From NCBI RefSeq assembly GCF_034366625.1, contig NZ_JAXMIH010000011.1:1-64000 (forward strand): DNA of 64,000 nt. Direction: 5' to 3'. This document shows positions 35,548 through 48,632 of the stretch, in pieces (position 1 is the first letter of the stretch; each line of letters starts with the position of its first letter). Source of the stretch: Prosthecobacter sp. GTDB lineage: Bacteria > Verrucomicrobiota > Verrucomicrobiia > Verrucomicrobiales > Verrucomicrobiaceae. The position numbers and the translations under genes were made by a program. The notes beneath the pieces are model-generated. The model was given only the letters and a program-made list of their open reading frames with translations. It did not search any database and had not been told where the DNA came from.

Positions 35548-37209
35548 TCATTTGCCGTCGGCCTTGCCGGGCACACGCGGATCATGCGCAGGGAAGAAGA
35601 GCTTCTTCTCCTGATCGAAGAAGATGGCCTGGCAGGCGCCGAAGGTGGTTGTCTCGGCGAGTTTGTGGCCGAGGGCCTTCACACGGCTAAGCGTGCCCTC
35701 GCCAAAGGCTTTTTCTATTTTGAGTTCGTCCGGGTTCCACTGGTGGTGGAAGCGGGGTTCGGCAAGGGCGGCGGCAGGGAGCATGTCGTCGTCGATGATG
35801 TTGCTGATCAACAGGAGCGCTTGGGTGATGATGGTGGGACCGCCGGCAGCGCCGGTGACGATGAAGGGTTTGCCGTTTTTGAGCACAATCGTGGGACTCA
35901 TGCTGGAAAGCGGACGCTTGCCGGGAGCGACGGCGTTGGCTTCGGCACCGACGAGTTTGAAGGCGTTGGGGATGCCGGGTTGCACGGCAAAGTCATCCAT
36001 TTCATTGTTGAGCAGGACACCGGTGCCGGGGATGACAACCTTGCTGCCGAAACCGGTGTTGATGGTTTGATTGAGAGCCACCCAATTGCCCTCAGCATCG
36101 GCGGTGCAGAGGAAGGTGGTGTGCTTGCCGAAGACATCGCCTTCCCAATGCGGTGGCATGTTGTGCGAAGGCACGGCGGAGGCGTGATCGAGGTCGATTT
36201 TCTTGGCGAGTTCGGCGGCGTAGTCAGGCGAGACCAGGCCTCGCGGGACTTTGGCGAAATCGGGATCGCCGAGCCAGTGAGCGCGATCGGCGAAGGCGAG
36301 TTTCATGGCCTCGGTGATGACGTGAATGCGGCTGCTGGCGCGGAAATGGCGGATGGGGAAGTGTTCGAGGACGTTCAGGATCTGCGCGACATGGACGCCA
36401 CCGGAACTGGGCGGCGGCATGGTGATGAGGTCGTAACCACGATACTTCGAGCGGATCGCCTCGCGCTCGGGTGCTTTGTAGTTCGCGTAATCGACGGCGG
36501 TGGTGATCCCGCCGTTCGCCTTCATCCATTCCTCGGTTTTTGTTGCGAATTCGCCTTCATAAAACCAAGCGATACCTTTTTCAGCCACGGCACGGTAAGT
36601 GGCGGCGAGGTCGGTTTGGACGAGCGTCTGGCCTTTTTCGAGCGGTTTGCCGTCTTTGAGGAAAATGGCCGCAGAAGCGGGGAATTTCGCGAGTTTGGCA
36701 GCCGTGGCGGCGAGCTTGCGGGCATAGACTTCGTCGAGGGGGAAGCCTTTTTCGGCGATGTCGGCGGCGGGAAGCAGGACATCGGCGAGTTTGAGCTTGC
36801 CGTGCTTCGTTTGGGCAGCGGCACAGGCTTTGAGGTAGCCAGGCACCCCGGAGGCGAGCGCACCGGTCTTGCTGGCCTCGTCGTCGAGCTTGCCGTTGAT
36901 GACATACATGTCGCGAGAAGCCTTGGCGGGGGCCATTTCTCGGCCGTCGATGCAGGTGACGGTGCCGTCAGCGGCATGGATGACGAAGAAACAACCGCCG
37001 CCGATGCCGGAGTTGTGTCCATCGACGACTCCGAGCGTCAAACCGGCTGCGATAGCCGCGTCGATGGCGTTGCCGCCTTTTTCAAAGGCCTGCATGCCTG
37101 CCTGCGTGGCGAGCGGATGTACAGTGGCGATGGCGTGCTTCGGAAATGAGGCGTCTGCGGCGTGCAGGAGACCGGTGGCGAGGACGAGCAGTGCGGAGAA
37201 CGCTTTCAT
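35548..37209 (-). CDS. ggt: Gamma-glutamyltransferase, exported
   Basis: 553 residues with signal peptide MKAFSALLVLATGLLHA. The chain follows the GGT plan: ATVHPLATQAGMQAFEKGGNAIDAAIAAGL at the front, IDGREMAPAKA, and the autoprocessing site around KHTTFLCTADAEGNWVALNQT, where the Thr before FLC becomes the new N-terminus of the small subunit. GTGVLLNNEMDDF and PLSSMSPTIVLKNGKP follow. The enzyme moves or hydrolyses gamma-glutamyl groups of glutathione and related compounds in the periplasm. Monocistronic on the minus strand. Confidence 0.92.
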   Translation of the reverse strand: MKAFSALLVLATGLLHAADASFPKHAIATVHPLATQAGMQAFEKGGNAIDAAIAAGLTLGVVDGHNSGIGGGCFFVIHAADGTVTCIDGREMAPAKASRDMYVINGKLDDEASKTGALASGVPGYLKACAAAQTKHGKLKLADVLLPAADIAEKGFPLDEVYARKLAATAAKLAKFPASAAIFLKDGKPLEKGQTLVQTDLAATYRAVAEKGIAWFYEGEFATKTEEWMKANGGITTAVDYANYKAPEREAIRSKYRGYDLITMPPPSSGGVHVAQILNVLEHFPIRHFRASSRIHVITEAMKLAFADRAHWLGDPDFAKVPRGLVSPDYAAELAKKIDLDHASAVPSHNMPPHWEGDVFGKHTTFLCTADAEGNWVALNQTINTGFGSKVVIPGTGVLLNNEMDDFAVQPGIPNAFKLVGAEANAVAPGKRPLSSMSPTIVLKNGKPFIVTGAAGGPTIITQALLLISNIIDDDMLPAAALAEPRFHHQWNPDELKIEKAFGEGTLSRVKALGHKLAETTTFGACQAIFFDQEKKLFFPAHDPRVPGKADGK

Positions 37210-37283: not shown

Positions 37284-37517
37284 CTACTCGGATCGCTTCC
37301 AACTCAGCCAAGCCCGGCGGTAGGTGAAGGCCATCGCCATGATCCCGGCAAACAAGAGCAGGGCGCGGCTGGGTTCTGGCACCGTTTGAACCAAGCTGGA
37401 AGCGTTTTCAGGCAGGGTGAATGACAACGTTGCAGCCATGTCCGGCTCGGCGGCACCGACCGCAATAACGGCGGTGATGCTGCAAACGAGCCAGTAGGTG
37501 ATGGAGCGCAAAGTCAC
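37284..37517 (-). CDS. Miniprotein with signal peptide and PEP-CTERM-like tail
   Basis: From a GTG at 37517 this encodes 77 residues: a hydrophobic N-terminus (YWLVCSITAVIAVGAAEP), about 25 residues of Ala/Ser-rich body, then VPEPSRALLLFAGIMAMAFTYRRAW. That end has the VPEP motif, membrane helix and basic tail of the PEP-CTERM sorting signal recognised by exosortase. The same frame stays open upstream to 37988, but that part overlaps homoserine dehydrogenase and is rejected. The start is uncertain. Very short for this class, so it might be a fragment of a longer protein. Confidence 0.5.
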   Translation of the reverse strand: MTLRSITYWLVCSITAVIAVGAAEPDMAATLSFTLPENASSLVQTVPEPSRALLLFAGIMAMAFTYRRAWLSWKRSE

Positions 37518-37722
37518 TGAATTAAATATATCTTTAGCCGATGAGGCCGGGGCAGGACAAGACTTTTTTGGCAACGAGATTGACGCAAGCTGTTCATTTT
37601 CAGAGCCTCGCCCGGATGAGCTTAGGAGATTGACCGGGGTGTTGGACGGCTGCCTTCCTGCTTGCGAGATCACCGCGCCTCCGCCATGACTACGGCCCCT
37701 CAACCCCGGCAACTCATCCATC

Positions 37723-40158: not shown

Positions 40159-40905
40159 TCACCAGAAGCCCCACTGCTGCGTTTTCATGACGTAGAGACC
40201 GAGGGCCAGATTGCCGACGGCATGCATGAACACGCACGCGCCCAGGCTTTTGGTGCGCACGGCCAGGTAGTACATCAGCGATCCCCACACGAAGGCACCG
40301 GCATAGTCTTCCGTGTTATGAATCAACATCACGCCGAGTGTCACAATCCAGAAAACTTTCCAACCATGTGTACCGAACGCGATGCGCTCAAACTGTCCAT
40401 CCTCCGTGAGCAGAAAACGCATCAAAAAGCCGCGCCAGAAGAGCTCCTCGACGAGTGGCACCACCAGCACCATGCGCGCAAAGCGCAGCCCCACGACGAC
40501 GCTGAACCACAGTGGTGAATCCTGCGCGATCATCGGATCAAAGCCTTCATTGCGCTCCGCGAGTCCGAGCCAGTCCCACCAAGGCGCTGGCTGCATGCCA
40601 CGCTCGACCAAGTGCTCCCGCAGCATTGACGGCGTGATCCAGCAGACGATTCCAATGATTCCGAGCACGAAAGCGAGGTGCAGCCCGCGCCAGGGAGCCA
40701 GCGTGTAATGTTTGCGAAACAGCACGAGCACCACAGCGCAAACAACGGTCTGCAACGGATAAACCCAGTGCTCCGGTGCGCGCACATGCCAGGGCAGCTC
40801 AGAGTTTTCGACGCGGAAGAGCCCGGGAATTGAGTTTAGAAGTGTGAAGAGCACCAACGGCAGCACATAAGCGGCGGTTGGGGATGAAAGCAGTCGCACA
40901 AGCAT
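40159..40905 (-). CDS. CPBP intramembrane protease (CAAX-like), PEP-CTERM-associated type
   Basis: 248 residues, strongly hydrophobic with about six membrane helices. The CPBP motif EELFWRGFLMR is at 153-163 (Glu153, Glu154, Arg158), the metal-site set of Abi/CPBP proteases; a His in HNTED and another in FMHAVGN could complete it. The N-terminal YVLPLVLFTLLN and YPLQTVVCAVVL segments resemble the CAAX-protease-related family that accompanies exosortase systems. It is the last gene of the minus-strand run and starts 12 bp from the halogenase-like gene. Substrate unknown. Confidence 0.8.
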   Translation of the reverse strand: MLVRLLSSPTAAYVLPLVLFTLLNSIPGLFRVENSELPWHVRAPEHWVYPLQTVVCAVVLVLFRKHYTLAPWRGLHLAFVLGIIGIVCWITPSMLREHLVERGMQPAPWWDWLGLAERNEGFDPMIAQDSPLWFSVVVGLRFARMVLVVPLVEELFWRGFLMRFLLTEDGQFERIAFGTHGWKVFWIVTLGVMLIHNTEDYAGAFVWGSLMYYLAVRTKSLGACVFMHAVGNLALGLYVMKTQQWGFW

Positions 40906-40917
40906 TGTTCGTGGCGG

Positions 40918-42207
40918 TTACGGCAGCGCCAGTTCCTTCGCGCGTTCGCGATTCAGCAGCCATTTCGAGCAGCTCCGCAGATAGCCACGGTTCCAGGCGG
41001 ACAGCGTCGAGGCTCCGGTCGCCATCAGGGCAAGAGTGCGGTTGGAAACAGATTCCATCGTGTTGCTGAACCAGCCGGGGTAGTCCGCCTTCAACTGCAT
41101 GCCGCGCTCATAGAACGCCACGATGCGCCCGTCGTAGAAATACGCGATCAACTCATGCCAAGCCTCGTGCCAGGCACGCTGGCGCTTCTCATAGCGGCCA
41201 AGTTCCTTCATCAAACGTTCGGGCGAATCGAGAAGTTTTTCACCATGCTTGGCAAACATTGCGTTCAGCGTTTCCGCCGCATCCAGTGCAAGAAACACAC
41301 CTGGCGAGAGCATCGGATCGACAAACCCAAACGCATCTCCGGCGGAGACCCAGCCCGGGCCATGCGCTCGATCCGAGATGAGCTGATAGTTCGTGTAGGT
41401 GTAAACTTCGCTGATGCGCTGGCGGTTTTGCGTGAGCGGTGAAAGCACACTGTCCGTTGCCAGTACCTTGTCGAGACGTTCTTCTCCGTTGGCTCCGAAG
41501 TCCGGCAGCGATTTGGGATTCATCACGATGCCGAAAGACAAGCGGCCTGGCAGCGGAATGCGCCAGCTCCAGCCCCAGGGGTGATAGGTGATCGCGATCT
41601 GTCCCGGCTCATACGGATGTTCGATGCCGGTGAAATGCGCGAAGTGCGCGGTGTCCTTGCGCACGCCTGTCTCGGCCTTGATGCCGAGCAGTTTGGCGGA
41701 GGAGCGTGAGCGACCGCTGCAATCGACGATAAGGTCTGGTTTTTCACCGTTGCGCCAGCCGCCTGCTTCGAGAGACGCCGCATCCAGCTCCAGTTCCGGC
41801 CTGCCTCCCGGATGCGCTACGAGTCCGGCGCGATGCTTCACAAACCGCACGCCCAGCTCTTTGGCGTAATCCTTGATCACATCGTCAAAGGCAGGACGTG
41901 GCACGTTGTAGGCATACGGCGGCAGGCGGCCTGCCACCGATTTGAAATTGAAGTGCATCTGCGTGCCACGGTGATGGATGAAACTGGCGCCGGGCTTGAA
42001 CTGAGAGATGGCTGCCACGCGGTCCTCGATGCCCATGCGCTGCAAAATCGCGACAATGGCGGGGATCAGCGACTCGCCCACAAGCAGTTGCGGACGCTTT
42101 TCATCATCAAAGACGAGTGGCTGGATGCCCTGACGCGCGAGCAGTGCGGCGAGTGCGCTGCCCGCCGGGCCGGCGCCGAGGATGGCGATGCGTGGAGGAC
42201 GGTTCAT
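40918..42207 (-). CDS. Flavin-dependent halogenase-like / FAD oxidoreductase
   Basis: 429 residues with the dinucleotide motif GAGPAGSALA at 11-20, a GES segment at 44-46 as in halogenases (LLVGESLIP), and the W-x-W-x-I-P motif at 213-218 (WSWRIP), which marks flavin-dependent halogenases and keeps the enzyme from acting as a monooxygenase. K71 in FKPGASF is a candidate for the catalytic Lys, but alignment is needed. FAD-binding GDAFGFVDPMLSPG lies later. Four bp from the AMP-ligase gene; see the finding on the operon. It may instead be a flavin monooxygenase. Confidence 0.8.
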   Translation of the reverse strand: MNRPPRIAILGAGPAGSALAALLARQGIQPLVFDDEKRPQLLVGESLIPAIVAILQRMGIEDRVAAISQFKPGASFIHHRGTQMHFNFKSVAGRLPPYAYNVPRPAFDDVIKDYAKELGVRFVKHRAGLVAHPGGRPELELDAASLEAGGWRNGEKPDLIVDCSGRSRSSAKLLGIKAETGVRKDTAHFAHFTGIEHPYEPGQIAITYHPWGWSWRIPLPGRLSFGIVMNPKSLPDFGANGEERLDKVLATDSVLSPLTQNRQRISEVYTYTNYQLISDRAHGPGWVSAGDAFGFVDPMLSPGVFLALDAAETLNAMFAKHGEKLLDSPERLMKELGRYEKRQRAWHEAWHELIAYFYDGRIVAFYERGMQLKADYPGWFSNTMESVSNRTLALMATGASTLSAWNRGYLRSCSKWLLNRERAKELALP

Positions 42208-42211
42208 GTTT

Positions 42212-43582
42212 TTAATAGCGGCGGAGTTTGCCGCTGGCGGTCAGGGGCAGCTCGGAGACGAATGTGTAGAACAGCGGCACTTTGTAGGCGGAGAGACGCT
42301 CCTGGCAAAGCTTTCTCAATTCAATCACCGGCGGCGGCGCTTCGGCATCCACGGCAATGATCTCCGCCACTGGCATGGCTCCGAGTGCCGGATGTGCCCG
42401 TGCGGTGATACGCACGGCTTTCACGCCAGGATGACCGCGCAAAACTGCCTCCACCTCTTCGGGGAAGCATTTCAACCCGCCGACATTGATCACGCTGCGC
42501 ACCCGGCCGCGCAGATAAAGACAACCGTCTTCATCCACCTCCGCGATGTCACCCGTGGCGAACCAGCCATCACGCAAGATGGCCTCACGCGGCTGCCACG
42601 GCGCCAGATAAGCATCGAAAACGCCCGGACCGCGCAACAGCAGCTCGCCGTCGTCCAGTTTGATTTCAAAGGCGGGCAGCGGCTTGCCGATCGAGGTCGG
42701 TTTGTCCTTCGCATGTTCCAGATTCAAGATTGGAAGTCCGGCTTCGATGATGCCCATGCCCTGTGTCAGATGCAGGCCTGTCTTGCTGGCGAAAAGATCG
42801 GCCACTTCGTTCGTCAACGCGAAGGCCGTGGAAACCGCGAGGCGAAGCGAGCCGAGCACTGCCGCGTCCGGCTGGCCGGAGAGCATCGTGTAATGGTAGG
42901 GCGAGCCGTACATCACGGTCGCTTCATGCTCACGCATCATCGCGAGCATCACCTTCGGGTCGCTCGCCGGGGCGAGGATCGTGGTGGCGCCGTGGTAGAG
43001 GTAAAGAATGATCGAGACGGCGAAGTGATGCGCCATCGGCAGCACCCACAGCACGCGATCTTGCGGCCCGATGCGTAAACCCTCGTTCGCTGCGGTAATT
43101 CGGCCAAGCAGCGTCTCGTGCGAGATCACAATGCCCTTCGATGTGCCCGTCGTGCCGCTGCTGAAGCGGATGAAGGCCGGATTCAGTGCTTCTAGGGCTG
43201 ACTCATCGAATGCAGGAGGCGAATCATGTGTCACCGCCTCGATGCGCCAGTCTTCCGCGTTCTTGGCAAATACGATGACATCCAGCGCTGTCGATTTTGC
43301 GAGCTGCGCTCGCTCACTGGCCGTCAGCTCAGCCGGAATCGGCACAAAGCATGCGTTCTGCTTCAGGATCGCCAGTGCCAGCACGATGTAATCGGCTCCG
43401 TTCGGCGCACCGAGGCCAATGCGCGGGCGAATTTTCCCCGGCCAGGCCGGATCGGCGTTCATGCGCTGCGCACAGGCGTTCATGCGGCTCTGCAACTCGC
43501 CAAACGTGAGCTGCAGCTCCGGGCTGACGACGGCGGGATGCGCGGCGGTGCTGCGTTCAAAGATGAGATCGACGATGTTCAC
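42212..43582 (-). CDS. AMP-forming acyl/aryl ligase (ANL superfamily)
   Basis: 456 residues, short for the family. The adenylate-binding signature is FSSGTTGTSKG at 140-150; the later GDIAEVDEDGCLYLRGR segment is the A7/A8 region and ends in LTASGKLRR with the catalytic Lys of the mobile C-terminal domain. It activates a carboxylic acid with ATP and hands it to a thiol, here likely the carrier protein of the same operon. The start overlaps the FAD gene by 4 bp. The acid substrate is unknown. Confidence 0.88.
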   Translation of the reverse strand: MNIVDLIFERSTAAHPAVVSPELQLTFGELQSRMNACAQRMNADPAWPGKIRPRIGLGAPNGADYIVLALAILKQNACFVPIPAELTASERAQLAKSTALDVIVFAKNAEDWRIEAVTHDSPPAFDESALEALNPAFIRFSSGTTGTSKGIVISHETLLGRITAANEGLRIGPQDRVLWVLPMAHHFAVSIILYLYHGATTILAPASDPKVMLAMMREHEATVMYGSPYHYTMLSGQPDAAVLGSLRLAVSTAFALTNEVADLFASKTGLHLTQGMGIIEAGLPILNLEHAKDKPTSIGKPLPAFEIKLDDGELLLRGPGVFDAYLAPWQPREAILRDGWFATGDIAEVDEDGCLYLRGRVRSVINVGGLKCFPEEVEAVLRGHPGVKAVRITARAHPALGAMPVAEIIAVDAEAPPPVIELRKLCQERLSAYKVPLFYTFVSELPLTASGKLRRY

Positions 43583-44856
43583 TGTGCTGGCTCCAGTTTG
43601 CGCAAAACCGCGCGCACCTGCTGTGCGAGGGTTGCGGTATCTTGTTCATCCGATGCGGCGGCGATGCCCGCCGCCTGTCCCGTCGCTAAAGCCGTGCCCA
43701 TGACACGAATGCTGGCTTGCGCCCGATGTGTGGCGGAAAGGCAGCGTCCGGCGACGAATACGTTTTGCAAATCGCGGGCGCGCAAGGCCCCCAGCGGAAT
43801 GCCACAGGCTTTCGGTTCATGCGGATATAGCAGCCGCGGCCCGCGGGCCGTTTCACGCAGTTCCAACGGCCAGGTGGCGTTTGCGACTGCCTGATCACCG
43901 CTGCGGCTTGCAAGGATGTCTTCCTCAGTCAAAACGGCTTCAGCGATCCAGCGCCGGCTTTCGCGAATGCCCGCGCGCACCGGCAATGTGGTGACGCGCG
44001 CCTTGGCAAAGCCTTCCAGCGATGAACGCAGATGATCGACGATGGCAAAGGTCACTTCGCGGCCCTGCATCTCGATCCACGTCAGACTGCGCGGATCAGT
44101 GGCATCAAACGGGCATTCTGGCGAATCGCCCGGCAGGTCGAGTGTGAGGAAAACTTCGTTCAAAGCGCCGCTGGCGCGAAAATGCGCGCCTGCGGCCTCA
44201 GAAGGCAGTTTTTTCTCCTGAATTGCCTTCGCGAGGCATCCGGCGATTTTCAACGGACCATCGCCTGTGAGTGCGGCAGCATCGACCTCGCCAAGACCGA
44301 CGATGTAGGCGGGACGTTGCAGTTCCTGCGCCGGAGTCTTGTCCCACGGATGATTTGCGAGTGTCGCCAGCACTGCATCGCCGCTGGCATCGACGATGGT
44401 GCGCGGACGCAGCTTCCAGGATGTACCACGGCAGTGCAGAGTCACTTCGCTGATGCGATTGCCTTCAACAGCGGCGTGAATGACCTCGGTGTGCAGCAGC
44501 ATCTTCAAGTTCGACTGCTTGGCGCACCATTGATCGTAAAACAGGGCGAGTTGCTGCGGCTGATGCATCAGCACATCGACCTTGCCCATGCGCAGCGGCC
44601 CGTGCGCGATGCCTTGGGCGAGCAATGCGCGTTCAAGCTCGGCAGGGATGCCAGGATTCGCGACTTTCGGTGCGGTATCTGGCGTTGGCGGCAGGTCATA
44701 CAGGCCGCAAAACGAATGCACGAGCGAAGCGGTACCCGCACCACCGAAGAAGCCGTGTCGCTCGACAAGCAGCGTGTTCGCGCCCTGACGTGCGGCCGCC
44801 AGAGCTGCCGCCACGCCTGCGCTGCCACCGCCGATGATGAGAACGTCGGGATTCAT
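43579..44856 (-). CDS. FAD-dependent oxidoreductase (FAD_oxidored family)
   Basis: The start at 44856 (MNPDVLIIGGGSAGVAAAL) leaves a 7-bp gap to the upstream gene; an earlier Met would overlap it. 425 residues with GGGSAGVAA, ERHGFFGGAGT and the C-terminal FVAGRCLSATHRAQASIRV segment of PF12831 flavoproteins. Unlike the large flavoprotein at 15956 it has no signal peptide, so it works in the cytoplasm, in keeping with a carrier-bound substrate. A dehydrogenase or desaturase step on the growing product is plausible, but not shown. Confidence 0.85.
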   Translation of the reverse strand: MNPDVLIIGGGSAGVAAALAAARQGANTLLVERHGFFGGAGTASLVHSFCGLYDLPPTPDTAPKVANPGIPAELERALLAQGIAHGPLRMGKVDVLMHQPQQLALFYDQWCAKQSNLKMLLHTEVIHAAVEGNRISEVTLHCRGTSWKLRPRTIVDASGDAVLATLANHPWDKTPAQELQRPAYIVGLGEVDAAALTGDGPLKIAGCLAKAIQEKKLPSEAAGAHFRASGALNEVFLTLDLPGDSPECPFDATDPRSLTWIEMQGREVTFAIVDHLRSSLEGFAKARVTTLPVRAGIRESRRWIAEAVLTEEDILASRSGDQAVANATWPLELRETARGPRLLYPHEPKACGIPLGALRARDLQNVFVAGRCLSATHRAQASIRVMGTALATGQAAGIAAASDEQDTATLAQQVRAVLRKLEPAQ

Positions 44857-44863
44857 GGCGGCA

Positions 44864-46198
44864 TCATTCCCCAAGAAGATCGGAACGCCAGCGTTCACGC
44901 ATCATCTCGGTTTCTGTTTCGCTGAGGCAGGTGTCGAGATAGCTCACTGTGACGGTGAGCTGGTCCTGGCATTCGGACACAAACAAGCCGCTGCCGGGCG
45001 GCGCGTTCACCGTGGGCATGTGGATGGCGTTCACGATCTCACCACCGCAGAACGCGGTCATGCCTTCACCGAAACTGCCGGTGTAGGCATGGTAGAACGA
45101 GGCGATCTCCCCCCGCTGTGCGAGACGCACCATGTTGAGCATCGTTTTGCCCGGCATGCGCCGCATGAGAAGCTGCAAGGAGTTGAAGGACAGGTGCCGC
45201 TTCAGTTTGAGATGCTCCAGGTGCTGCTTCATGAGCACCTTGCTCGCCATGGCGAGGTCCGTGAGGTCGGCGTCCTTCAAAATGAAGAAGAACATCGACA
45301 TGTGGTTCTGGAAGATCGCCATGCGGCCGGTGTTGTCCTTTGGCCGCTGTTGCACGGGCATGGTCACGGCATACGAGAGGTCTGCATGGCCGCGTGATTG
45401 AAACACGGCCTGATGGCAACGCGCGGCCAGTCCAGCGTAGAAAAACGTGCGCATCATGTCGCCGCCGATTTTGCCGAGCGTGAGTTTGATCTTCGCCGTT
45501 TCTTCCTTGGAAAACGTCTCCCACAGGCAGCATCGACGTCCGCTGACGACCTTGCCCTGGCTCACGGACACAAACGGCTCCGCGCCCAGGCTCATGAGGT
45601 GCTTGCCACACGTCTCGCTTTCCTGAAACAGCTTCCACCAAGGCTTGTCATTCCGCACCACTGGCTGCTGCGGTGAAGCGGTCTGTGGATCGTGCCACAG
45701 CTCGTTCATGTGCTTGAACAGCAACTCCACGCCCGTGCCGTCGAGCAGCAGGTGTGACCAGTTCATCAGGATGGACCACGTTTGATCGCTCGTGCGCACC
45801 ACATCAAAACGGATGTGCGGTGGGCCGAGCGATGAGCGCTCTCGGCCTTGCATACGCAGTCGGCGCAACGTCGAGACAGACTCAATCACGGAGGTTTCCG
45901 GCCCGGTCACGCTGCTGACGCGATGAAACTCGATAGGAACCGCCACAGCATCCCCCGAGCATTCCCAATACGGCACGCCAAACCAACCGTCTTTGCGCAG
46001 CGTGGCATGCAGCAGCGGCATGCGCTTCGGCAGTTCCGCCGCCAGCCAGCGCAGGCGGGTTTCATCCGGCTGTCCGCTGACTTGAATCTCACTCAAGGCA
46101 TCCAATCCACGACCGTCGGTAGATCGTGCGAGATAATCGAGCGCGACGACGAATCCATCCGTGCCGGTGATCGGGAATTGCAGAACGGCAGTGCTCAT
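44864..46198 (-). CDS. Condensation-like acyltransferase
   Basis: 444 residues of the chloramphenicol-acetyltransferase-like fold. The active-site motif H-x-x-x-D-G is at 149-154 (SHLLLDGTG); the usual second His before it is a Ser here, as in some members. A SFGEGMTAFCGG segment near the C-terminus fits the DFGWG-like position. Condensation domains join a carrier-bound acyl group to an amine or alcohol. It overlaps the ACP gene by 4 bp, so carrier and condensing enzyme are made together. The acceptor is unknown; wax-ester-type acyltransfer is an alternative. Confidence 0.82.
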   Translation of the reverse strand: MSTAVLQFPITGTDGFVVALDYLARSTDGRGLDALSEIQVSGQPDETRLRWLAAELPKRMPLLHATLRKDGWFGVPYWECSGDAVAVPIEFHRVSSVTGPETSVIESVSTLRRLRMQGRERSSLGPPHIRFDVVRTSDQTWSILMNWSHLLLDGTGVELLFKHMNELWHDPQTASPQQPVVRNDKPWWKLFQESETCGKHLMSLGAEPFVSVSQGKVVSGRRCCLWETFSKEETAKIKLTLGKIGGDMMRTFFYAGLAARCHQAVFQSRGHADLSYAVTMPVQQRPKDNTGRMAIFQNHMSMFFFILKDADLTDLAMASKVLMKQHLEHLKLKRHLSFNSLQLLMRRMPGKTMLNMVRLAQRGEIASFYHAYTGSFGEGMTAFCGGEIVNAIHMPTVNAPPGSGLFVSECQDQLTVTVSYLDTCLSETETEMMRERWRSDLLGE

Positions 46199-46449
46199 GC
46201 GGCTTGTCCATTCACCAGGGCGGCTAGCGCGTTTCCGCTGCGGAAATTGGCCCTGCTCAGTTCAGCCGGTTCCACTTTCTTGCTGAAACGCTCTTCCAAA
46301 TACATGACCAGTTGCATCACTCCCATCGAGTCGAGTCCGGCTTCAAAAAAATCGGCCTCGGCGCTGAACTCAGCGGGCAGATCAGTCAGGACGGTTTCGC
46401 GCACGAGTTCGATCATCGTGTTAGGCGTGTGTTCGAGAGCGGCGGGCAT
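46195..46449 (-). CDS. Acyl/peptidyl carrier protein
   Basis: 84 residues with the phosphopantetheine site GLDSMGVMQL (Ser41), acidic helix surface, and typical length. It heads the coupled minus-strand set, overlapping the condensation gene by 4 bp. Not the fatty-acid ACP by context, since no fab genes are nearby. It probably carries the acyl or aryl group activated by the ligase two genes on. Confidence 0.9.
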   Translation of the reverse strand: MPAALEHTPNTMIELVRETVLTDLPAEFSAEADFFEAGLDSMGVMQLVMYLEERFSKKVEPAELSRANFRSGNALAALVNGQAA

Positions 46450-46493: not shown

Positions 46494-48632
46494 TCAGGGA
46501 TACTCGTGGCCTAGATTGTCATCAGTGATGATCTTGGCGTCGTCCCAGGCGTTTTGCATGGCCTCACGGCGGCACCAACGGGACATGTGGCCGGGGACGG
46601 GCAGGGCTTCATGGTTGAGGAAATCGAGGATGCCGTCGATTTGATCGGCGAGGATGACGGGCTGGCCGTCGATGTGGTAATCGGCGAGGGTTTTCTGCCA
46701 GCGGTCGCGGTTTGGTTCCAGGGGCGCGTTGCTGGCGAGGCAGTGGTTCATAACCATCATCGTGTGCGGAAAGACCTCCATGCCGGTGCGGGCGGCGCGT
46801 GGCGACTCGGTGCAGTTCCAGAAGGCGATGCCGTCGGGTGTGAGGTGGGCTTTGACCTCGGTCAAAAATTCGCGGGAGAGCAAGGCGGAAGCGAACTCGC
46901 GCCAGTGATGAGTCGTGTTCATCACGATGGCGTCGAAGCGTGCGTCGGGATGCTGGCGCAGCCAGCGGCGGCCGTCGTCGATGACGAGCGTGAATTTGGG
47001 ATTGGTGAGCAGGCTGGCAACTTCGGGACGCGCGCGGATGAGATCGAGGTAGCCGTGGCTGAGTTCGATGGCGGTGACGTGCTTCACCTGCGGATGATTG
47101 ACGAGGATCTGCGTCCACGAACCACCGGCGACGCCGATGACGAGCACGTTTTCGATGCGGTCCCGCACAGCGGAGAGGAAGTAAGGCCGTACGAGCCAGG
47201 ATTTTGACTCCAGCTTCGTGCCGATCATGCCGTCATAGGCACCGTTGCCATAAACCGCGTTGCTGGTGTCTACCGTGACGACGCCATGGCGCGATTCGAT
47301 GATCTGCGCGAAGCGCATGCCGGGTTTGAACTCGTGCTTGTATTGCAGGCGCTCGTAGAAGCTTTGAAACGGACTGAGCGTGATGAGGATCATGAACAGC
47401 GGCTGAAAGCGCAGTTTGGCGGGCAGTTGAAAACGGGCGATGCCTTCGACCCAGAGCCAGGAAATGGCGAGCAGCAGCCAGCTCAGAACCTGAAGGCTCA
47501 TCCATTCCATGAACACAAAACCGGTGAGCAGACTGCCTGTGCCAGAGCCAATGATATTGGCAAGGTAGAGCCGCGAAAGCTGGCTGCCGGTGTCTTTGCC
47601 GGGTGGAATGGCCGCATGGCAGAGCAGTGGGAAGGTGATACCGAGCAATGTGCCGGCGGCGATGACAAACAGGTAACCGCATTCCCAGAAAGCATACACA
47701 GCGACGATGCCAGTGAAGGGCGCGACGAGAAAGCCAGCGACGCTCGATAGCAGCACCCAGCGAGCGAGCTTATGGCGAAGATCGTAGCCGGTTTGCTTCA
47801 ACAAACGTGGACTGAGGAGTGATCCGAGCGCGAGTCCGAGCAGGTAGCTGCCGAGCAGGTAGCCGAATACGGGCGCTCGGGAGGCGCTGGCGAAGTTGAA
47901 GACGCGTGACCAGACGATTTCCCAGGAGAGGGCGAGAAAACCGGAGAGCGCAGACCACAACAATGCGGTGCGGAAGGGGATTTGAAATTGGAGATTTGAA
48001 ATTTCAGATGCGGAGCTTTCGGCCTCGTCGGGGGCTTTGCGTGAGGTGAGCAGCACGATGAAAGCCGCCAGCGCATTCAAACTGGCCGCGATGCGCGTGG
48101 TGCCGCTCATGCCGAAGCTGCCGAGCAGCCAGTGTGCGGCGATGAAGGCTCCAAGCGCGGCGCCGAGCGTGTTGACGAAGTAGAGTCGGCTCACGCTCTG
48201 GCCGACGTGCGCCGTGTCGCGCACCTGATGCGCGACGAGCATCGGCAGCGTGGCTCCCATGAGCAGTGTTGGAAGAAACACGAGCAGGAAGACCAACGCG
48301 CCGGTGGTGAGGCCGTGGGCTTGCGCGGAAGTGATGGTACCGACGGCGTCGAACAATTTCAGCGAGATGAGGCCGTAGGCACCGACACCGAGTTCGGCGA
48401 GGCCGAACAGCAGCACGAGCGGCGCACGCGTTGATTTGGAAATCCAGCCACCTGCGAGACTGCCGATGCCTAGACCGGCTAGAAACGCCGCCACGACCAT
48501 CGCCACGGATTCGACGTTGCTGCCGTAGATCGTGAGCAGCGCACGCTGCCACACGAGCTGGTAGATCAGCGCCGAGATGCCGGAGAGGATGAAAACGCCA
48601 TGCAGGATGATGGCGTGGAGGCGGCGTGACAT
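46494..48632 (-). CDS. Fused MFS-like transporter / spermidine synthase-like protein
   Basis: 712 residues: about 11-12 membrane helices in the first 440 residues, then a soluble SAM-binding domain with VLVIGVAGGSWTQIL and IELSHGYLDLI (spermidine-synthase-like Rossmann core), followed by DDGRRWLRQHPDARFDAIVMN. Such fused membrane aminopropyltransferase-like proteins are common in PVC bacteria and have no firmly known substrate. Stop is 44 bp from the ACP start and its own start is 4 bp from the isomerase-like gene, so it belongs to the same minus-strand run and might export or modify the operon's product. Confidence 0.82.
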   Translation of the reverse strand: MSRRLHAIILHGVFILSGISALIYQLVWQRALLTIYGSNVESVAMVVAAFLAGLGIGSLAGGWISKSTRAPLVLLFGLAELGVGAYGLISLKLFDAVGTITSAQAHGLTTGALVFLLVFLPTLLMGATLPMLVAHQVRDTAHVGQSVSRLYFVNTLGAALGAFIAAHWLLGSFGMSGTTRIAASLNALAAFIVLLTSRKAPDEAESSASEISNLQFQIPFRTALLWSALSGFLALSWEIVWSRVFNFASASRAPVFGYLLGSYLLGLALGSLLSPRLLKQTGYDLRHKLARWVLLSSVAGFLVAPFTGIVAVYAFWECGYLFVIAAGTLLGITFPLLCHAAIPPGKDTGSQLSRLYLANIIGSGTGSLLTGFVFMEWMSLQVLSWLLLAISWLWVEGIARFQLPAKLRFQPLFMILITLSPFQSFYERLQYKHEFKPGMRFAQIIESRHGVVTVDTSNAVYGNGAYDGMIGTKLESKSWLVRPYFLSAVRDRIENVLVIGVAGGSWTQILVNHPQVKHVTAIELSHGYLDLIRARPEVASLLTNPKFTLVIDDGRRWLRQHPDARFDAIVMNTTHHWREFASALLSREFLTEVKAHLTPDGIAFWNCTESPRAARTGMEVFPHTMMVMNHCLASNAPLEPNRDRWQKTLADYHIDGQPVILADQIDGILDFLNHEALPVPGHMSRWCRREAMQNAWDDAKIITDDNLGHEYP

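Follow-up and report, generated by a model that had tools for sequence, protein, structure and literature searches.

The question raised by the locus described here is whether a compact run of biosynthetic genes in Prosthecobacter sp. makes a product of its own or serves a pathway encoded elsewhere in the genome. The genes lie in a stretch of 64,000 nucleotides (NCBI RefSeq assembly GCF_034366625.1, contig NZ_JAXMIH010000011.1, positions 1 to 64,000; hereafter, the window), in which an earlier note had read six packed open reading frames (ORFs) as an operon for carrier-bound chemistry. All six are present on the minus strand, from 46449 down to 40159, and in their order of reading they are as follows.

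ACP, 46195-46449, minus strand: free-standing acyl/peptidyl carrier protein of 84 aa with a GLDSM phosphopantetheine site (PP-binding, 40.3 bits, cut-off 20.8).
COND, 44864-46198, minus strand: free-standing condensation-fold acyltransferase, by predicted fold and motif, with HxxxD(G) at H149/D153.
FADox, 43579-44898, minus strand: PF12831 FAD-dependent oxidoreductase (FAD_oxidored, 279.6 bits, cut-off 27).
AMPlig, 42212-43582, minus strand: acyl/aryl-AMP ligase of the ANL family (AMP-binding, 167.2 bits, cut-off 29.9; AMP-binding_C, 44.5 bits, cut-off 24.5).
HAL, 40918-42207, minus strand: halogenase-type FAD enzyme (Trp_halogenase, 97.5 bits, cut-off 21).
CPBP, 40159-40905, minus strand: glutamic-type intramembrane protease, TIGR03008 (Rce1-like, 48.3 bits, cut-off 22.4).

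We consider it reasonably probable that the first five of these genes form an accessory module of a verrucomicrobial pathway to yellow pigments of aryl-polyene/xanthomonadin type, detached from the pathway's core, which lies elsewhere in the genome, that the module loads, modifies and transfers a carboxylic acid on ACP, and that CPBP is a neighbour. The reading draws on the families and motifs of the proteins, the predicted fold of COND, the order of the genes, their linkage to polyene genes in other genomes, their co-occurrence across the phylum and the presence of part of a core in the own genome. From these we infer a direction of catalysis, a substrate, a choice between halogenation and hydroxylation, an acceptor and a product: AMPlig would adenylate a carboxylic acid, probably an aromatic one, and load it on ACP, HAL would halogenate or hydroxylate the carrier-bound acid, FADox would oxidise it, and COND would transfer it from ACP to a nucleophile on a polyene or a membrane anchor. 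No ketosynthase (KS), ketoreductase (KR) or dehydratase (DH) is present among the six genes of the operon, which would thus be a side module and not the aryl-polyene cluster itself. In our view such an adjunct to a known pigment pathway explains the operon better than a new pathway standing alone would.

The linkage to polyene genes is seen in other Verrucomicrobiota. One genome (G402; L090, L142, L239) has ACP-FADox-AMPlig-HAL beside LolA, an ACP, a KR, two KS-type genes, an AMP ligase, a FabA-type dehydratase and MMPL, and in another (G361; L169/L196) a single stretch holds KS, a chain-length-factor-like (CLF-like) KS, ACP, FADox, AMPlig, MMPL, LolA and two Trp_halogenase-type genes. In Chthoniobacter flavus Ellin428 (L209) and at L205, L230 and L240 the full five-gene order stands beside MMPL, LolA and halogenase-like genes, and at L138 and L139 the ACP-FADox pair adjoins a KS pair. 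The labels were checked against Pfam for LolA (4/4 tested), KR, FabA-type DH, ACP, MMPL and methyltransferase. All counts out of 80 given here refer to the 80 loci listed of the 397 AMPlig relatives that a scan of named genome contigs matched. Of these 80 loci, 13 carry two or more strict aryl-polyene markers (L209, L205, L230 and L240 among them) vs none of 31 control loci, which are shorter than the test loci and come from related genomes; one control locus (L095) carries a single strict marker, MMPL. The count becomes 11/78 on leaving out L196 and L239, whose sequence was also used as reference, and 8/80 when LolA and the deacetylase are not counted. HAL2 and HAL169 were excluded from the strict list because HAL itself matches both (16 of the 31 controls have HAL2 and/or HAL169 matches), and LPGS and KR because they are common. 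Among verrucomicrobial genes, the Ape proteins of E. coli CFT073 match KS, KR, ACP, MMPL and ApeJ- and ApeD-like ones, whereas COND, FADox, AMPlig and HAL of the window go unmatched; on this evidence the module is best regarded as something added to the known pathway.

Part of such a core is present in the window's own genome, where contig C5 carries KS, CLF-like KS, an AMP-binding ligase, a methyltransferase, a polysaccharide deacetylase, a lipid A acyltransferase-like gene and a second Trp_halogenase-type gene. The KS pair is placed as follows.

KS pair of the own genome (G000), contig C5, L158: 10509-11738 and 9487-10512, the second with only 23.3 bits over a cut-off of 20.8.

E. coli ApeR and ApeO match the own-genome KS with E values of 4e-52 and 1e-45, respectively. 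MMPL matches are found at 9 places in this genome, none of them assigned. Large synthases, unconnected to the operon, appear on contigs C26, C9 and C8 as three open frames of about 2600-2950 aa, each combining KS with carrier domains.

Across a sample of 387 genomes of the phylum (three samples, taken as the same on the grounds that their hit handles coincide), HAL is found in 13, AMPlig in 21 and aryl-polyene-type KS in 18, and all 13 HAL genomes have both AMPlig and KS. Counted by genus, 6/6 HAL genera are among the 9 KS genera, of 197 in all; the corresponding Fisher values, 1.5e-20 by genome and 1.1e-9 by genus, ignore shared descent. These searches used uncalibrated E cut-offs (HAL 1e-40, AMPlig 1e-90, KS 1e-90), and single absences may be misses since at most four candidates were scored per genome. 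In a set of 24 genomes selected for carrying HAL or COND, FADox and HAL are each present in 24/24 and AMPlig in 23/24. The mirror correlations for the four enzymes, with rho of 0.69-0.85 over 14 loci, include shared species history.

Several observations weigh against an accessory role in polyene synthesis. The module is not linked to the polyene core in the window's lineage. The C5 core stretch yielded no KR, DH or ACP, and neither an exporter nor LolA, at which no search was aimed in this genome, was located there. The E. coli Ape matches in the stretch are limited to KS and ApeJ: ApeC, ApeH and ApeL match nothing in it at E 1e-3, ApeC not even the CLF-like gene. A strict aryl-polyene marker is absent from 64/80 loci and a KS match is found in only 4/80, while 28/80 have no other module gene on the strand of AMPlig; several of these 28 lie on short contigs, though the length reaches 20 kb or more in at least 15 of them. 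Nine loci near the window's have SPDS (a gene upstream of ACP, described below), FADox and AMPlig in the absence of ACP-COND, as found in a blastp map and confirmed by tblastn; six of the nine have HAL, and CPBP follows. The HAL genomes are all in one order, and the co-occurrence is largely confined to it and not independent of descent. AMPlig occurs without KS at the cut-off in 6/387 genomes (G361, G058, G234, G312, G345, G410). Three of these, G361, G234 and G058, carry less similar KS-like genes in the vicinity, and in G345 FADox-AMPlig-ACP is joined instead to a nonribosomal peptide synthetase (NRPS) condensation-PCP-thioesterase protein. COND is found in 11 of the 13 HAL genomes and is missing from two.

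The five enzyme genes ACP-COND-FADox-AMPlig-HAL are a module spread across Verrucomicrobiota, conserved but flexible. A search of 35 genomes of the same genus, some of which are incomplete, gave the six-gene order in five, namely the window's and four more at 75-89% protein identity; recurrence at such identities is not chance. A purely accidental neighbourhood can thus be rejected, given the recurrence of the order both within the genus and in the related loci. At least one of ACP, COND, FADox and HAL lies on the strand of AMPlig in 52/80 loci, and the order ACP-COND-FADox-AMPlig-HAL is seen in 10/80, six without and four with CPBP. The six five-gene loci without CPBP, Chthoniobacter among them, are distant (AMPlig 46-52% and COND 28-30% identical to the window's). 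Two related stretches carry surprising titles: L189 bears the title Akkermansia muciniphila but matches the window's proteins at 81-95% identity across the operon and its flanks, and L195, a contig of a 'Nitrospirota' bin, has COND-FADox-AMPlig-HAL at 40-54% identity. These titles look wrong, or the bins mixed.

Within the window the genes are tightly packed, and the earlier description of their spacing, as 4-bp overlaps or gaps of 4-12 bp, holds at four junctions: ACP/COND and FADox/AMPlig overlap by 4 bp (46195-46198 and 43579-43582, respectively), and gaps of 4 bp and 12 bp separate AMPlig from HAL and HAL from CPBP. It fails at COND/FADox, where the overlap is 35 bp with the GTG start of FADox at 44898; an internal ATG (residue 15), near which several orthologues begin, would place the two genes about 7 bp apart. 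One further gene lies 44 bp upstream of ACP on the same strand.

SPDS, 46494-48632, minus strand: fused MFS/spermidine-synthase-like protein (MFS_SpdSyn, 91 bits, cut-off 40).

SPDS may share the operon's transcript as its possible first gene. It is found in 12/80 related loci, in each of which AMPlig shares 84% identity or more with that of the window, and is a neighbour, not a module member. A promoter scan found one candidate against a shuffle mean of 2.1, no better than shuffles, and a terminator scan was weak (11 found, shuffle mean 7.8).

Pfam and NCBIfam profiles back the family labels that had been given to ACP, FADox, AMPlig, HAL and CPBP. The label of condensation enzyme finds no such profile support, as COND has no Pfam match at E<=10 other than one to B5 (E 0.29) and no meaningful NCBIfam match; it is the predicted fold and the HxxxD motif that sustain it. 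The AlphaFold2 model of COND, for which the window protein and 23 relatives were the input (pLDDT 89.7), has as its top match in Foldseek and VIA-align searches AzeD (PDB identifier 8s6l), with a Z score of 31.6 and an rmsd of 3.5 over 408 aligned residues, followed by NRPS condensation and heterocyclization domains (for example, PDB identifier 5du9 with a Z score of 29.0 and an rmsd of 3.5 over 396 residues). The HxxxD residues His149 and Asp153 do not vary in any row of two alignments (16/16 and 24/24; the window protein with 15 of 29 and with 23 of 27 relatives, respectively); His149 corresponds to the second His of (H)HxxxDG, and the position of the first is a Ser in the window. COND is, on this predicted structure, a condensation-fold enzyme with the chloramphenicol-acetyltransferase-like double fold and a relative of these proteins at the level of the fold only. 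With AzeD and the NRPS condensation domains it has in common a fold match over the whole length and the HxxxD site, and it differs from them in its sequence, with 12-14% identity in the structural alignments, and in being free-standing or fused to ACP. The fusions to ACP, seen in several genomes (for example, L057 and L230), fit a carrier-bound substrate for COND. In the COND tree the operon copies adjoin the copy from the Nitrospirota-labelled bin that has COND-FADox-AMPlig-HAL (support 100/100), and a second ACP-COND pair of the window's genome stands apart from them. This second pair (L043:6532-8075, contig C14) recurs in several genomes of the same genus, its copies forming a clade of their own, and the 16-kb stretch around it at L043 gave no ligase, FADox or HAL matches.

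The carrier and the ligase are likewise conserved at their functional sites. The site [GD]xDS[LMI], with a hydrophobic middle residue, is found in 26/27 ACP segments of the related loci, the exception, at L213, reading LNSM. In AMPlig the residues of the SSGTT...KG loop and Lys452 of T-x-S-G-K (the A10 Lys) are invariant in 20/20 rows (the window protein with 19 of 31 relatives). Its A4 region reads AHHF and not the FDxS of amino-acid domains. In PDB searches its closest profile matches are peptide synthetases and its closest single matches are feruloyl- and fatty-acyl-CoA ligases, with aryl, fatty and amino acids as its candidate substrates. With both AMP-binding domains and the A10 Lys, AMPlig is, to judge from its sequence, an ANL adenylating enzyme, and it would be expected to load ACP.

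HAL carries GxGxxG, Lys71, WxWxIP (213-218) and FxxPxxSxG (295-303). Lys71 aligns with a Lys of CmlS and is presumed to be catalytic. A check for this residue had been called for, and Lys71, WxWxIP and FxxPxxSxG proved invariant in 18/18 and in 21/21 rows (the window protein with 17 of 27 and with 20 of 37 relatives, respectively); GxGxxG is invariant in the 18 and its last Gly nearly so among the 21. Loss of the catalytic Lys is thereby ruled out. The same set of motifs (GxGxxG, Lys, WxWxIP, FxxPxxSxG) is named for RadH in PMC10377541. The nearest solved relatives of HAL are 8zop (FasV), 3nix, CmlS, 5buk, ChlB4, PltA, CndH and Bmp2. Of these, 3nix is a flavoprotein/dehydrogenase with no assigned activity that has the same Lys, WxWxIP and FxxPxxSxG in its aligned part, so that halogenation by HAL is no more than possible.

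It is accordingly quite conceivable, if somewhat short of probable, that HAL and FADox are ordinary flavoenzymes of hydroxylase or dehydrogenase type and that no halogenation takes place. Such a view accommodates the motif set of 3nix and the scores that HAL also reaches, below the cut-offs, against QhpG (111 bits) and the GG-reductase superfamily (77 bits), but it has to reckon with the invariance of the halogenase motifs in all aligned relatives and with a best solved match that is named a halogenase. The FADox model (window protein with 23 of 32 relatives in the alignment; pLDDT 93.0) has only generic flavoproteins as its closest folds, with tied Z values of which the best is 20.4.

A further alternative, which we think unlikely and yet place close behind the accessory conjugation module, concerns the stage at which the module acts: AMPlig, ACP, HAL and FADox would make a modified aryl-ACP as an unusual starter, which COND would pass on or edit, with no conjugation of a finished polyene. 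The nearest solved relatives of HAL include halogenases that act on carrier-bound aromatics, and the ACP-FADox pairs adjoining KS pairs at L138 and L139 would be well placed for such a role. In known aryl-polyene pathways, as described in PMC3949708 and PMC8253772, the first step is the activation of 3- or 4-hydroxybenzoate by an AMP ligase or an acyl-ACP synthetase. However, the own genome and several clusters have a second AMP-binding gene (AMP2) by the KS pair, and the supply of a starter needs no condensation enzyme.

A self-contained pathway to a small acylated, perhaps halogenated, product of the kind that the earlier note had proposed, with no relation to polyenes, we regard as improbable. 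The separation of the operon from polyene genes in the window's genus speaks for it, as do the 28 AMPlig loci mentioned above as having no other module gene on the same strand. So does the locus of G345, from another family of the phylum (L172:8058-14278), where FADox-AMPlig-ACP precedes a Condensation/PP-binding/Thioesterase protein and a phosphopantetheinyl transferase-family gene; this enzyme set, standing beside an NRPS condensation-PCP-thioesterase protein, suggests that FADox-AMPlig-ACP may serve other, non-polyene products. The marker-rich loci with their empty controls, and the joint presence of HAL, AMPlig and KS in every HAL genome, speak against it. What stands of the note's proposal is the carrier-bound chemistry itself, with ligase, ACP, flavoenzymes and condensation enzyme; the small-product pathway gives way to what looks like a detached aryl-polyene module. 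The alternative that the note allowed, a modified lipid or cell-surface group, is still a fair guess, given that PMC8253772 describes aryl polyenes as pigments of the outer membrane.

The membrane protease stands at the end of the operon, and a functional partnership in which it attaches a group made by the operon to a C-terminal sorting signal, or cleaves the two together (PEP-CTERM/myxosortase-like logic), is very improbable: CPBP scores 110.7 bits against TIGR03008, named pepcterm_CAAX (curated cut-off 81.05), keeps EExxxR in the window and in 20/20 related-locus copies, is found in 20/80 related loci and has a PEP-CTERM-tailed ORF about 2.6 kb away, but it has one match per genome in 30/32 genomes, among them 7/8 genomes of genus g2, in none of which HAL, AMPlig or COND (0/8 searched) was found, lies elsewhere in genomes with a dispersed module, has variable spacing and gave no match in G402, where ACP-FADox-AMPlig-HAL is present. 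CPBP is thus rejected as a pathway member and is probably a co-oriented (housekeeping) neighbour. The tailed ORF (window 37284-37538, minus strand, equal to L141:11989-12243) scores 20.7 bits against TIGR02595 (cut-off 16) and adjoins a gamma-glutamyltranspeptidase gene (35548-37209); a related genome has a similar 84-aa ORF (19.6 bits), and at L052:9331-10710 a PEP-CTERM-tailed protein (TIGR02595, 20.4 bits) is the divergent neighbour of an ACP-COND fusion gene.

Returning to the accessory module of a polyene pathway, we tentatively suggest, as a possibility that falls short of an even chance, that Verrucomicrobiota make undescribed aryl-polyene conjugates, in which a free-standing NRPS-like set (A ligase, carrier and condensation enzyme) joins a halogenated or oxidised aryl group to a polyene or lipid anchor, the genes being clustered or scattered. 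A literature search, with most subscription journals outside its range, gave no description that we recognised as this module. For the phylum, PMC9865893 reports an antiSMASH-predicted cluster in a yellow strain, with no chemistry. The analysis names a conserved enzyme set with cultured carriers, such as Chthoniobacter flavus and Haloferula, in which pigment decoration in this phylum could be studied. A further suggestion is that prediction based on clusters would overlook a pathway whose genes are split over several loci, as in the window's genome.

Among known systems, the halogenation of carrier-bound pyrroles and phenols by PltA, Bmp2, ChlB4 and CmlS comes close to the operon in its ligase, free carrier, flavin halogenase-type enzyme and conserved motifs. 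The analogy to pyrrole halogenation drawn in the earlier note, here set against PltF/PltL/PltE/PltA, is only partial: PltE is an acyl-CoA dehydrogenase-type enzyme, whereas the operon has none and FADox belongs to PF12831, by which a canonical PltE-type oxidase is rejected. Halogenation by the operon is itself no more than a possibility. The aryl-polyene, xanthomonadin, arcuflavin and flexirubin-type systems share with Verrucomicrobiota a list of genes of which other members of the phylum have one subset or another next to the module (KS, CLF-like KS, AMP ligase, ACP, KR, DH, methyltransferase, deacetylase, acyltransferase, LolA, MMPL and halogenase-like genes), and differ from the window's operon, which has no KS, KR or DH and is detached from the core in the window's lineage. 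In its account of the arcuflavin clusters, PMC3949708 lists KS, AMP ligase, ACP, methyltransferase, polysaccharide deacetylase, acyltransferase, LolA, exporter and halogenase, and for E. coli PMC8253772 has the polyene acid thought to be attached to lipid by acyltransferases. Arcuflavin, a xanthomonadin-dialkylresorcinol hybrid, provides, as presented in PMC3949708, a precedent for joining a second carrier-built unit to an aryl polyene with genes spread over separate loci; there the second unit comes from the ketosynthase-type dar genes, whereas the operon would contribute an NRPS-like set of ligase, ACP and condensation enzyme.

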